Made by a program: the position numbers and the translations under genes. From a bacterium (GTDB lineage Bacteria; Zhuqueibacterota; Zhuqueibacteria; Residuimicrobiales; Krinioviventaceae), in assembly GCA_029561455.1 (NCBI GenBank), contig JAKQIY010000033.1:1-63456 (forward strand): a stretch of DNA of 63,456 bases, given 5' to 3'. The notes under the pieces were generated by a model that worked only from the letters and a program-made list of their open reading frames with translations, ran no database searches and was not told the DNA's origin. Below are positions 40,512 through 61,632 of this stretch, piece after piece; position 1 is the first letter of the stretch, and every line of letters starts with the position of its first letter.

Positions 40512-40596
40512 GATGGAACTCGATTAGGGATTAACAGTGTTTGCAGGTTTACTGAAAGAACAACTCTGTTTTGAAAAGATCCGGTTTGTATTAATA

Positions 40597-40693
40597 TGCC
40601 AGGTGATCCTGCGGCACACAGATTAAGTACTTACCGCTGCTATCTTCCGATCCTGACGGGGTTGGGCACGCATCTGTTGCGCAGGGCCTGGCA
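40597..40693 (-). ncRNA. ffs: Signal recognition particle RNA (small bacterial, 4.5S type)
   Basis: The minus strand contains GTCAGGATCGGAAGATAGCA, the conserved apical loop of SRP RNA with the GGAA tetraloop and asymmetric internal loop. The outer arms TGCCAGG and CCTGGCA and inner CCTGCG/CGCAGG close a rod of 97 nucleotides. There is no Alu domain, so it is the short form. It lies 86 bases upstream of dnaX, the neighbour of ffs in several phyla. With Ffh it targets membrane proteins to the translocon. Confidence 0.93.
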
Positions 40694-40764
40694 CTTTTAA
40701 ATGGCAAAAACCGGCAAGGGTGTTTATTGTTGTGGAATAAAGATAAACCGGTTTCTATTTTGCC

Positions 40765-40840
40765 TGGTGGAGCCGAAGAGATTCGAACTCTCGACCTATA
40801 CGTTGCGAACGTATCGCTCTCCCAACTGAGCTACGGCCCC
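40765..40840 (-). tRNA. tRNA-Ala (anticodon CGC)
   Basis: A 76-nucleotide cloverleaf: acceptor GGGGCCG/CGGCTCC, anticodon arm ATACG-TTCGCAA-CGTAT with anticodon CGC, T-arm GAGAG-TTCGAAT-CTC. The CCA end is encoded. Reads GCG codons. Confidence 0.95.
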
Positions 40841-40887
40841 GGTATTTTCCTGCTTCCATTTTAGGAATGCAGGGTGGTTACAAATAC

Positions 40888-40977
<90 letters not shown>

Positions 40978-40999
40978 ATAATCTTACTATTTGCCAAAG

Positions 41000-41085
<86 letters not shown>

Positions 41086-41093
41086 AAATTCAT

Positions 41094-41564
41094 TCACTTG
41101 TCGCTATTCCGGCGTTGCCGAACCTGCGCAAAAAAATCTTTAAGCAACAAACTGCATTCCGTTTCCAGAATTCCGCCGGTTATCGGCACGCGAATATCGA
41201 GCTTATCCTGTTCGGCCAGTTGCAGAACCGAACCGCAGGCGCCATACCTGGGATCGCGCGCTCCAAACACCAGGTGCGAAATCCGCGCCAGTAAAATCGC
41301 GCCTGTACACATGGCGCAGGGTTCCAGGGTTGTATACAGTATGGAATCGTTGAGCCGCCATGTTCGCTGTGACCGGGATGCGGCATTAATGGCCAGCATT
41401 TCCGCATGGGCGGTGGCATCCTGCAGGGTTTCGATCAGGTTGTGTCCTCTGCCGATGATGTGGCCGTCAAGCACGATAACCGCGCCTATCGGCACTTCCT
41501 GCTTACGATACGCTTTTTCCGCTTCCCGGAGCGCTTCCCGCATCCAGGTGAAATGCTCATCCAT
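41094..41564 (-). CDS. tadA: tRNA-specific adenosine deaminase
   Basis: The 156-residue zinc deaminase has the HAE motif in ATAHAEMLA (about 51-59) and PCAMC (about 82-86), the zinc ligands and proton shuttle. TadA converts A34 of tRNA-Arg(ACG) to inosine, essential for reading CGC/CGA in bacteria. A TTG one codon upstream is possible, but the ATG at 41564 is preferred. It is wedged between tRNA-Arg(ACG), 20 bases upstream, and tRNA-Ser(CGA), eight bases downstream, so it is almost certainly transcribed as part of the tRNA operon and freed by tRNA processing. Confidence 0.94.
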   Translation of the reverse strand: MDEHFTWMREALREAEKAYRKQEVPIGAVIVLDGHIIGRGHNLIETLQDATAHAEMLAINAASRSQRTWRLNDSILYTTLEPCAMCTGAILLARISHLVFGARDPRYGACGSVLQLAEQDKLDIRVPITGGILETECSLLLKDFFAQVRQRRNSDK

Positions 41565-41584
41565 CAATCTTGCTGCATTATGTG

Positions 41585-41658
41585 CGCGCCCGGAGGAGCT
41601 CGAATCCCCAACCTTCTGGTCCGTAGCCAGACGCTCTATCCAGTTGAGCTACGGGCGC
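41585..41658 (-). tRNA. tRNA-Arg (anticodon ACG)
   Basis: A 74-nucleotide tRNA with acceptor GCGCCCG/CGGGCGC, anticodon arm TCTGG-CTACGGA-CCAGA (anticodon ACG) and T-loop TTCGAGC. CCA is not encoded. It is the substrate of TadA, whose gene follows directly. Confidence 0.95.
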
Positions 41659-41682
41659 GTTTATTCTTAACAATCTATCTTG

Positions 41683-41755
41683 TAGCGCGTACGGGATTTG
41701 AACCCGTGTTACCGGCGTGAGAGGCCAGCGTCCTAAACCCCTAGACGAACGCGCC
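41683..41755 (-). tRNA. tRNA-Glu (anticodon CTC)
   Basis: A 73-nucleotide tRNA with acceptor GGCGCGT/ACGCGCT (terminal G-U pair), anticodon arm CTGGC-CTCTCAC-GCCGG (anticodon CTC) and T-loop TTCAAAT. CCA is not encoded. It is the first gene of the RNA cluster. Reads GAG. Confidence 0.93.
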
Positions 41756-45461: not shown

Positions 45462-46874
45462 TTACTTTTGCAAAACCAGTTTTCGGGTGGTAGAGAACCC
45501 ACCGATTTGCAGTTTGTAGAAATATACTCCGCTTGGCAAATTACTGGCCGTCCAGGTAATAAAATACTCCCCGGCGGGCACATAGCCATCAACAACCGTA
45601 TCGACCAGCCGGCCCATTGTATCGTAAATTGTCAGCGATACATTGCCGGACTCTTTGAGCGTATAGTTAAAGGTTGTCGACGGGTTGAACGGATTGGGAT
45701 AGTTTTGCAGCAAGCGAATAGTTTCCGGTCGGTTCGGTCTGTTCACAGGGCGCACCGAGGTTTTGATTGTTGATGCGCCGTCGCCAACCAGTTCAATTTC
45801 GCTGATTATATTGGTGCCCATGCCCCGTTCCGCCAGCATTTTCAGATAATTGTCGGCGTATTCATTGACCGGAGTATAAAGTTTATCGGCTTCGGGATCG
45901 TTGCCCATCTGTACTGAAGCAATACTATCGGTGGCCACCGGGTCTTTGCCGGCCAGCAGTAAATGATACTCGGCCAGTTGAAAAGTGGAATTCCAGGGGC
46001 CTTCGCCGCCATCGGCGTTTTTAATGCCGTCGATGACTGCCAGGTTAACCGGTCGGGCCAGATTCAAATCACATATCGAACGCGGTAAATGCATACGAAT
46101 ATCGCCGCCGTCTTCATGCAATTTTGAGCGATACCCGCTCATGCCTTGCTTGATATAATTTTGTAAAGGCGTAATCCCGATCAGGTTTTTCATGGAATGC
46201 GTAACCGCTGCATTAAAATGATGCTTCATCTTGGGAATAGATACAAACACATTCACTTCATCTAAAATCCGGTTCAATGTAAAAGATTCATAATAACAAT
46301 GCTTGTCACCCGTAGATTTTTCCATAAAATCTGCAAAAGGCGCCGGCTTGTTCAAATCAACCAATTGGCAGCCCAGGGAGGTCTGTACATCTTTATAACC
46401 GTAATTATTATATGATTTTGCATCCCAGATCGCTTCGACAATATACAAATCTTCCGGTTTAACGCCGCAATCGAGGATCAGTTCTCCTACCGCGCGTAAA
46501 ACTTCGGGGTGAGTCCAGACATTGTCGACCAGACTGCCGCCCACCAGCTTGGAATTACTGGCATAGCCTGAACCACCGGTAAGGTTGATTTTTATTGCCA
46601 CTTTATCATTGGCATGCACCACATCGCTAATGCCGCCAAGGGCCTCGAACAAGTGCTGAACTTTGCTTTTAATAAACGCCCGGTCATAATTATCCGCGCG
46701 GGTAGCAGCTACTTTAGCTTTATATTCAGTCGGCAACAACGTCGAAGCGGATAATTTCCCGGCATTTTTTACCGGATTCAACAATAATGCCGCCGTCCCT
46801 GCGCCAACTGTTGAAATAAAATCCCGCCTGCTAAACTGTTCCGTTACGTTACCTTGAACTCTTTTCTTTCCCAT
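45462..46874 (-). CDS. DUF362 protein with Tat signal and type IX-type C-terminal sorting domain
   Basis: The 470-residue protein begins with a twin-arginine signal (SRRDFISTVGAGTAALLL, about 15-32). The centre (about 50-370) matches DUF362, a family often linked to iron-sulfur proteins, with SIPKMKHHFNAAVTHSMKNL as a typical stretch. The last 80 residues are a type A sorting domain: LLQNYPNPFNPSTTFNYTL (about 390-408), then beta strands ending SGVYFYKL and TRKLVLQK. Such domains are recognised by the type IX secretion system at the outer membrane. A Tat signal suggests that the protein folds, perhaps with a cofactor, before export. Catalytic role unknown. Confidence 0.85.
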   Translation of the reverse strand: MGKKRVQGNVTEQFSRRDFISTVGAGTAALLLNPVKNAGKLSASTLLPTEYKAKVAATRADNYDRAFIKSKVQHLFEALGGISDVVHANDKVAIKINLTGGSGYASNSKLVGGSLVDNVWTHPEVLRAVGELILDCGVKPEDLYIVEAIWDAKSYNNYGYKDVQTSLGCQLVDLNKPAPFADFMEKSTGDKHCYYESFTLNRILDEVNVFVSIPKMKHHFNAAVTHSMKNLIGITPLQNYIKQGMSGYRSKLHEDGGDIRMHLPRSICDLNLARPVNLAVIDGIKNADGGEGPWNSTFQLAEYHLLLAGKDPVATDSIASVQMGNDPEADKLYTPVNEYADNYLKMLAERGMGTNIISEIELVGDGASTIKTSVRPVNRPNRPETIRLLQNYPNPFNPSTTFNYTLKESGNVSLTIYDTMGRLVDTVVDGYVPAGEYFITWTASNLPSGVYFYKLQIGGFSTTRKLVLQK

Positions 46875-47012
46875 AAATAAATCTCCAGGTTTAAGTTATG
46901 TCATTTATCAATAGTAATAAGAAAAATACTGAAAAGCAATTATTAAGATTTATTATCTGTAAGGCTGGCGGTATTTTACAATATTTTACACAGTTACCCC
47001 ATGAAGTATTTT
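46875..47012. other. Upstream region of the DUF362 gene
   Basis: About 140 AT-rich bases before the mobile element; it should hold the promoter of the DUF362 gene. Nothing specific was recognised except the left copy of the target duplication at 47005-47012. With the element and 47512-47641 it makes up the 767-base gap between the DUF362 and M48 genes. Confidence 0.4.
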
Positions 47013-47503
47013 GGCTCTATATTGTTTCTAGTGGGTTATTTTGAAAAATAGACGCGAATCTTTTAAAACAAATAGACCCACTTTTTGTTGTAATAGACAA
47101 ATTTGCGTGTTGTCTATAAACAATTCATTATCTAAAGTATTTTTTAACTGATACTTGAAAGGAATACGATTTTTGATAATACATTCTTGTTTGTTCAATA
47201 AAAAATCTTTAGATAATCAACAAGAACAAGTAAATAATTTCATAAATAACAAACAGTTAAGATTTTCTCTGCGACCTCTGCGCCTCTGCGTTTTCATTTT
47301 TTTAACGCAGAGACGCAGAGAACGCAGAGGGAATAACAAATTATAATTATCTATTTTGTGGACGGGATGAAATATTAACCTGGTTCAATACCCGAGGTTG
47401 TTTTCTTTCAATCATAATACTGTAATAAATTATCAACCAGATTGTTTTTAGTAACCGCTTGATTAAGTACATAAAAAATACCCACTATAAACAATATAGT
47501 ACC
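47013..47503. mobile_element. 491-bp MITE-like element with terminal inverted repeats and 8-bp target duplication
   Basis: The left end begins GGCTCTATATTGTTTCTAGT and the right end, reverse complemented, begins GGTACTATATTGTTTATAGT; over the first 24 bases 21 match. The perfect direct repeat AGTATTTT flanks it (47005-47012 and 47504-47511). There is no transposase gene. Ends beginning GG with an AT-rich 8-bp duplication fit ISL3-like transposases, but that family assignment is tentative. It contains the large hairpin at 47267-47329. Confidence 0.78.
47267..47329. repeat. Large hairpin of tandem CTCTGCG units (copy A)
   Basis: Three CTCTGCG units on the left (47267-47292) pair with three GCAGAG units on the right (47304-47329), 23 of 26 positions, around a loop TTCATTTTTTT. 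The same pattern and loop recur at 50870-50940 and 61509-61573. It lies inside the 491-bp element. Confidence 0.8.
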
Positions 47504-47641
47504 AGTATTTTTATGTTTTAACGGAATAATATTCCCCCAAACATATTAATTCTTGTAGATCAAGGGCTGTCGCCGTGTTACAAATTTTTACACTGTAACT
47601 TACACAAAAAATTTGTCAACCGGCTACAGCCCCTGACTTGA

Positions 47642-50641: not shown

Positions 50642-50869
50642 AACAACCTCCTTTTTCTCTTTTCTATTAACAAAAAATTTTAAGGATTAATTTGGGCATT
50701 GTCAAGATTATTTTGAAAATTTTTAAAAATTTCAGAAAAAATTATTCTTGCCTGGGTGGGCCGATTCATTTACTTTTCAATTTTTGTAATAATTAATATT
50801 CATGATTTTTTTGGTTGACTCGACATTTACTTTAAACAAAAAAAACGGAGCAACGATGCTCCTGTGCCA

Positions 50870-50940
50870 CTCGGCGCCTTCCGGGTTCTTTGCGGTTTCA
50901 TTTTTTTCATTATACGCAGAGGATGCCGATAATGCGGAGA
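50870..50940. repeat. Degenerate CTCTGCG-type hairpin repeat (copy B)
   Basis: CTCGGCGCCTTCCGGG and TTTGCGGTTTCATTTTTTTC are followed by ATACGCAGAGGATGCCGAT and ATGCGGAG. The arms still pair partly and the loop TTTCATTTTTTTCATT matches copies A and C, so this is a diverged member of the same family. Confidence 0.6.
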
Positions 50941-51007
50941 AAAACATTCAAGCAATTGTTATTATAGCGCTTATTGATGGTTATATACTTTGAATAGTGT
51001 AAGAATT

Positions 51008-51031
51008 ACCCACTAGAAACAAAATAGAATT
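51008..51031. repeat. Fragment resembling the right end of the 491-bp element
   Basis: ACCCACTAGAAACAAAATAG matches ACCCACTATAAACAATATAG at the right end of the element (47480-47499) at 17 of 20 positions. The outermost CC is absent and no left end or target duplication was found, so it appears to be a decayed relic. Confidence 0.45.
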
Positions 51032-61213: not shown

Positions 61214-61632
61214 AAAGAATCCCTTTCCTTGTATTTATACTGCTTTAAACCAGTGCGACAATATTATTTTTGAAATGTATGAAATTTTATTTACAGATGC
61301 AAATTTTACTGTAATTTAATTTCCGGTTACGCCTCTGTCACGACATGACTTGGTGAGTGACCGTTTTACAAAAAAATTAGCCTTATAGGCTTTTCAGCAG
61401 GTAATTTTACCGATTGAACTATTGTTCAAGTATGAAAGGCTTTATAAGAACTCTATTAATAATCAAGTTTTTATCAATAAAAAAGACCTGGAAAAGCTTA
61501 ACTTTTTTCCTCTGCGACCTCAGAGAACTCTGCGGTTTCATTCTTTTCATTTTACCGCAGAGCAGAGAATCTCACACCTAAAAAATTTTGCATGACTAAA
61601 ACAAACCAGGACGCGAAGAACGCAGAGAAAAA
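61214..61632. other. Intergenic region with hairpin repeat
   Basis: These 419 bases hold the CTCTGCG-type hairpin (61509-61573) and a further GCGAAGAACGCAGAG unit that runs to within a few bases of the stop codon at 61633. The rest should contain the toxin-antitoxin promoter; none was recognised. Confidence 0.5.
61509..61573. repeat. CTCTGCG-type hairpin repeat (copy C)
   Basis: CTCTGCGACCTCAGAG and AACTCTGCGGT are followed by a loop TTCATTCTTTTCATTTT and ACCGCAGAG, CAGAGAATCTC. Units and loop match copies A (47267) and B (50870). Confidence 0.7.

Follow-up and report, generated by a model that had tools for sequence, protein, structure and literature searches.

The nearest described system to the sequences reported here is that of RAYT and REP (REPtrons, TIRtrons), in which a gene for an HUH enzyme is flanked by GTAG-tagged repeats that it is thought to spread (PMC3733652). 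Likenesses to the system of PMC3733652 are the dispersed short palindromes, the gene flanked by them, the abundance of the repeat arms mostly in genomes that bear the gene and the occasional genome with one gene and many repeats. Unlike RAYT/REP as portrayed there (PMC3733652), the gene in question (GxxExxY) is of the PD-(D/E)XK kind (PF13366) and not an HUH tyrosine transposase (Y1_Tnp, PF01797), and its arms consist of three units of ~9-10 bp. Neither a GTAG nor a CGTC tag adjoins the foot of the palindrome at 47267-47329, the one palindrome inspected for it.

Homing endonuclease elements are similar in arrangement only, having a small nuclease gene between palindrome halves and a gene-free palindrome at many sites, and differ in that GxxExxY arms also spread without the gene. 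With ISL3 insertion sequences and the MITEs derived from them, the family described below has in common ~26-bp ends that start with GG, an 8-bp target duplication and several copies, as well as end blocks found in a complete ISL3 element (L115) and in genome G161. It differs from ISL3 insertion sequences by lacking a transposase, by its core of GxxExxY-type arms and by the fact that an ISL3 gene was not found in the genome. Searches of the open-access literature returned no paper for the CTCTGCG repeat strings (a related CTCTGTG string occurs there inside a PCR primer) and no account of the origin of CTCTGCG-type palindromes. Among the papers listed from the same literature on ISL3-derived MITEs or on PDDEXK-linked palindromic repeats, none dealt with a system of GxxExxY and arms; GxxExxY is met there in passing mentions, and its nuclease family has almost no literature there.

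The element, its copies and its ends

The window (the whole stretch of 63,456 bp that was analysed) is part of a genome of 5.85 Mb in 85 contigs (G000). The features discussed are as follows (coordinates, strand, feature and evidence).

47005..47012, no strand: target duplication, left copy AGTATTTT (sequence; 8 is the only length favoured over eleven copies)
47013..47503, plus strand: ISL3-type MITE, 491 bp (eleven aligned genome copies, paired ends, duplications)
47013..47038, plus strand: left terminal inverted repeat GGCTCTATATTGTTTCTAGTGGGTTA (21 genome-wide end-pattern matches, control 0)
47267..47290, plus strand: core palindrome, left arm with three CTCTGCG units at spacings of 2 and 1 (sequence; fold; same type beside GxxExxY genes)
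47306..47329, minus strand: core palindrome, right arm with three CGCAGAG units at spacings of 1 and 2 (sequence; fold; aligned in other copies)
47478..47503, minus strand: right terminal inverted repeat (21/26 match to the left end)
47504..47511, no strand: target duplication, right copy AGTATTTT (sequence)
~50851..51031, minus strand: decayed partial copy with palindrome and one end (87% over 110 bases in the best blastn alignment with the eleven copies)
~61384..61562, minus strand: decayed partial copy that retains the palindrome and a single degenerate end (75% over 183 bases by blastn with the eleven copies; sequence)

A sequence-only reading had described a non-coding element of 491 bp with ends that start with GG and a perfect 8-bp target duplication; its coordinates proved exact (47013-47503). 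Its ends, GGCTCTATATTGTTTCTAGTGGGT and GGTACTATATTGTTTATAGTGGGT, agree in 21 of 24 positions, or in 21 of 26 when taken as terminal inverted repeats of ~26 bp, and AGTATTTT is repeated without a mismatch at 47005-47012 and 47504-47511. No gene lies inside, the longest listed frame being one of 63 aa that crosses the core palindrome, and Rfam gave no match at the element.

Comparison of the element with its own genome yielded 31 matches, among them one other full-length copy (77% identity). The end pattern, allowing three mismatches, matched 21 times in the 5.85 Mb and its reversed control not once; pairing of these ends led to eleven copies of 305-491 bp that can be aligned over their whole length, with an internal gap in the shortest. 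Aligned copies of the MITE number at least eleven in this genome. When duplication lengths of 2-12 bp were tried on all eleven, 8 bp gave a mean identity of 0.89 (perfect in six copies, at least 7/8 in eight) and every other length 0.60 or less, while 4 of 110 mismatched pairs of left and right flanks scored at least 7/8. Transposition of an element without transposase, as the earlier reading had proposed, is borne out by the copies, their paired ends and their 8-bp duplications. An end-like fragment at 51008-51031, taken there as a sign of further copies, is the right end of the decayed copy at ~50851-51031, with another such copy at ~61384-61562, and the genome-wide search for the 24-base ends that the earlier reading had called for gave the 21 end-pattern matches and the eleven paired copies. 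The epithet "recent" given to the transposition is not supported: even the closest copy of full length has only 77% identity, the ISL3 transposase domain PF01610 was not found in the assembly and five other, diverged copies keep perfect duplications. The family is real and old. In the one congener (G001), where an empty site was sought, the left and right neighbours of the element match on different contigs.

Elsewhere in the window, the minus-strand gene at 45462-46874 encodes the string NYPNPFNPST (45650-45730), with dozens of matches in this and related genomes; we take this stretch to be a C-terminal sorting-type domain. A small SRP RNA and five tRNA genes form one minus-strand cluster at 40594-41755.

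A longer end pattern found a match in 14 of the 194 genomes searched. In G161, a genome outside the window's phylum, the end GGCTCTATATGATTTTTAGTGGGTTA (L354; the same end with GTAA at L065) is located ~50 bp ahead of incomplete frames with ISL3 domains (PF13542, E 1.5e-6; PF14690, E 1.5e-4, just under the cut-off). On a matrix built from 22 ends of the window's genome, which themselves score 24.1-42.5, the two G161 ends score 34.9 and 36.9 and are the best two among 45,518 positions in seven ISL3 loci; the matrix of own ends also picks out ISL3 elements. L115 is a complete ISL3 element in the window's order (1,305 bp, PF01610 E 9e-69) with an 8/8 duplication, AGAAAAAT, and has an outer GGTTCT block and an inner GTGGGTAA block in common with the ends studied here; its ends score only 11.5 and 3.7 on the matrix, the likeness being limited to these blocks. 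The first guess that the element is ISL3-like gains from both, the G161 ends being nearly identical. A full-length element with the same ends and a transposase had also been sought: a near-same end before incomplete ISL3 frames was identified in G161, and none in the genome of the window. L242 was considered as a helper insertion sequence and rejected, as a different end (GGGCTCTTCCGG) adjoins its transposase frame when read by eye; the matching end is found ~540 bp past that frame, with GxxExxY remnants between.

The IS1595 and IS256 families also generate 8-bp duplications. Membership of another family of this sort, with convergence at the ends, might be argued from this and from the lack of a match to the ISL3 transposase domain PF01610 in G000 (a draft in 85 contigs, from which repeated genes can drop out). 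It is very improbable in view of L115, which has both conserved end blocks, and of the G161 ends, which fall within the range of the own ends directly before ISL3 domains (a comparison with ISL3 ends only). The evidence from end sequences supports a non-autonomous ISL3-type MITE that would have been moved in trans by an ISL3 transposase. Such a transposase would have bound both ends, excised the element and inserted it into an AT-rich target cut with a stagger of 8 bp. The MITE is probably stationary now, because a transposase gene was not found in the present genome. By itself it is an ordinary member of the ISL3 type; its core is unusual.

The core palindrome and the GxxExxY genes

The palindrome at 47267-47329, absent from the earlier reading, has two arms, each composed of three ~9-bp units of the CTCTGCG type. 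As single-stranded DNA, 47255-47345 is predicted to fold with -26.8 kcal/mol (z -8.1). The palindrome occupies the same aligned position in all eleven copies, with diverged arms in one of them (C61).

When 84,980 species genomes were scanned for an exact arm together with one unit of the other arm, at least 117 stretches were identified, the matches listed including records titled Fischerella, Nostoc, Desulfobacca, Sphingomonas and Acidobacteria as well as Chloroflexi, Verrucomicrobia, Aequorivita and Pirellulaceae. Around the cross-phylum palindromes at 80 of these loci (L125-L204), no GG-ended inverted pair with an 8-bp duplication was found. Three of the 117 identified loci contain a GxxExxY gene, in each case no more than a few hundred bases from an arm. 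Another short element, from two Desulfobacterota genomes and alignable at 10 of 12 loci, has the palindrome at its midpoint. This element, in Desulfobacca and SURF_52, has ends of the TATA..GCGACATAAATAATTG type with the CTCTGCG palindrome at its centre (L132, L135, L141, L149, L158, L160, L195, L201, L202 and L203). Arm-type repeats adjoin one another several times, as a near-tandem set of palindromes, in the right flank of L255 and at L357 (own genome, C67).

The GxxExxY gene matches PF13366, a PD-(D/E)XK family (E 3.7e-42). Nine PF13366 matches were identified in the window's genome, and at each of seven loci read by eye triple-unit arms or their remnants adjoin the gene; these arms are of several motif types, two of them CTCTGCG. 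For a wider test, 70 loci were used, each from another genome, of which four truncated ones (L275, L279, L283 and L289) were dropped, and each left flank was compared, over 250 bp, with its reverse-complemented right counterpart (threshold score at least 17). Across many phyla, inverted arms flank the gene in 51 of the remaining 66 loci, whereas none of 57 control pairs of flanks, chosen at a distance of 750-1000 bp, reaches the threshold. Protein was obtained from 63 of 74 loci by an extraction that demanded G..E..Y and E.K. A strict triple pattern lies no further than ~320 bp from 40 of these 63 genes and in none of 115 far segments; under this rule the other 23 genes have no arm. The arms form two classes, ..AG (n=26) and ..AT (n=14), which change twice on the protein tree, where shuffled classes change 11.8 times on average and none of 500 shuffles as few. 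The association of GxxExxY genes with their arms is strong.

Conservation of the catalytic residues is partly circular, given the demands of the extraction (G..E..Y, E.K), which did not extend to the invariant D, Q, Y, N and F. An AlphaFold2 model of the protein built from three sequences reached a pLDDT of 70.8, and Foldseek with this model gave nothing significant. VIA-align placed BglII, EcoRV, I-Bth0305I and Holliday resolvases at Z 2.5-4.5 amid unrelated rows, values too low for use, and no sequence relative was found in the PDB. One query against phages gave no match to GxxExxY.

Among plasmids, 8 of 72,556 records hold the gene, and four of these loci (L363, L364, L365 and L370) have an inverted-flank score of at least 17, L370 with direct and inverted arm copies mixed. 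L366 scores 10 because its right arm falls inside coding sequence; L367 has direct repeats, L368 one short unit and L369 no clear arms. At L363 (Gemmatirosa kalamazoonensis plasmid 1) the gene is located between two complete palindromes and not between two single arms.

Arms and genes across genomes

The ..AG triple pattern was counted in 388 genomes that were also searched for PF13366, 306 of them outside the window's phylum. In these 306 it occurs in 34 of 70 gene-bearing and 10 of 236 gene-free genomes (p 4e-17, a value that ignores kinship, the genomes not being fully independent). At least eight copies are present in 18 of the 70 and in one of the 236; in this lone gene-free genome (G372), the copies listed are tandem arrays. 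Two complete genomes encode a single GxxExxY gene together with 61 (G127) and 103 (G282) arms. Unit spacing in ten listed dispersed copies from each of four genomes equals that of the gene's own arms in 10/10, 10/10, 9/10 and 2/10, the last genome having eleven gene matches. At four G127 loci that were viewed, the copies are single arms and not full palindromes.

Arms of this kind could also be regulatory hairpins (transcript ends or operators) that accompany GxxExxY and are neither mobile nor recognised by the nuclease. Such palindromes could serve as transcript hairpins, the fetched stretch has no GxxExxY gene at 114 of the 117 palindrome loci identified, and arms without the gene exist in the 10 of 236 genomes mentioned above. 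Against these points stand the inverted arms on both sides of the gene, the variation of arm type by protein clade, the spacing that fits the resident gene in three of four genomes and the high copy numbers in gene-bearing genomes, and a purely regulatory role is unlikely. Action of the nuclease on the arms, the reading preferred here, would follow from their association and co-variation with the protein, and we rate it as somewhat better than even.

The extent of the unit can be seen in Sphingomonas parapaucimobilis, in which a GxxExxY gene, bordered on both sides by an arm (TTCACGCGAAG... and ...CTTCGCGTGAA), is located between fabD and fabG. The fabD-fabG spacer is ~30 bp in S. paeninsulae and Rhizobium indigoferae, and in several other records both genes are matched over a span shorter by about the same amount. 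From this comparison, the unit consists of the gene and its arms, and its junctions coincide, or nearly so, with the outer arm edges. A further comparison within the genus of G127, an illustration only (one locus, a repeat-rich spacer, five genomes), concerns a spacer that presumably precedes a hemE-like frame: the triple is intact in G127 and near-intact in G389, both gene-bearing, degenerate in G392 and missing from G390 and G388, all three of which are without the gene (PF13366).

Probable history and meaning of the core

In related genomes, elements with the same ends were found to hold GxxExxY remnants next to similar arms. When 39 stretches with ISL3-type ends, 23 of them from relatives and 16 from the window's genome, were compared with GxxExxY proteins, eight gave a match at E of 0.01 or less, as against one match line in 780 shuffled sequences. 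Clear remnants are those at L074 (7e-15), L084 (1e-10), L083 (4e-10), L082 (3e-5), L071 (2e-4) and L242 (4e-4), with a further one in a relative at L072 (0.003). One stretch of the window's genome matched (E 0.002) and the other 15 of the 16 tested there showed no remnant, so that a history with a carried gene is drawn from the relatives. Both ISL3-type ends are present at L071, L074 and L082; the duplication at L071 agrees at 7/8, and L074 and L082 have no matching duplications.

A different gene was observed between ISL3-type ends in G048 (L069:746-1526), namely an IS200-like Y1_Tnp gene (PF01797, E 2.6e-28) with a duplication of 7/8 (GAGTTTGA/GACTTTGA). Its enzyme is of the RAYT kind; with it, another gene linked to palindromes is seen to be carried by ends of this type.

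The core might instead have arisen from an independent mobile palindrome that inserted once into an existing ISL3 MITE which never carried a GxxExxY gene. The absence of a clear gene remnant from the window's own family speaks for this, as do the palindromes that stand alone in many genomes and the same palindrome at the centre of the unrelated short element in the two Desulfobacterota genomes. ISL3-type ends around GxxExxY remnants in relatives speak against it, as does the palindrome's identical alignment in all eleven copies, by which one event would be enough for either history. We hold this origin to be possible and the less probable one. The ISL3-type ends around remnants favour a history in which gene-arm units were picked up, their genes decayed and the arms were left in the window's family. 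With good confidence, the element is regarded as an ISL3-family MITE whose core consists of GxxExxY-flanking arms, the gene most likely having been lost from an ancestral carried unit.

The core palindrome is a genetic entity separate from the MITE, made up of the two triple-unit arms known from the flanks of GxxExxY genes, here gene-free. The ancestor of the MITE was most likely an ISL3-ended element carrying a GxxExxY-arm unit, like the decayed elements in relatives; once the gene was lost, its two arms would have come to face each other as a palindrome and have been multiplied along with the MITE. The arms are probably recognised by the GxxExxY protein, which would help to disperse them, in the manner proposed for RAYT proteins and REP palindromes. 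By a slight preference, we regard GxxExxY and the triple-unit arms as an unrecognised mobile system of many phyla, a PD-(D/E)XK-based counterpart to RAYT/REP, in which the protein would know its own, co-evolved arms, arms and empty palindromes would spread in gene-bearing genomes, and the system would also ride in ISL3-type MITEs.

The core of the element matters more than the MITE around it. If the link is true, GxxExxY would be a candidate maker for the CTCTGCG-type palindromes, and dispersed palindromes tied to one gene would have arisen with a nuclease distinct from that of RAYT.
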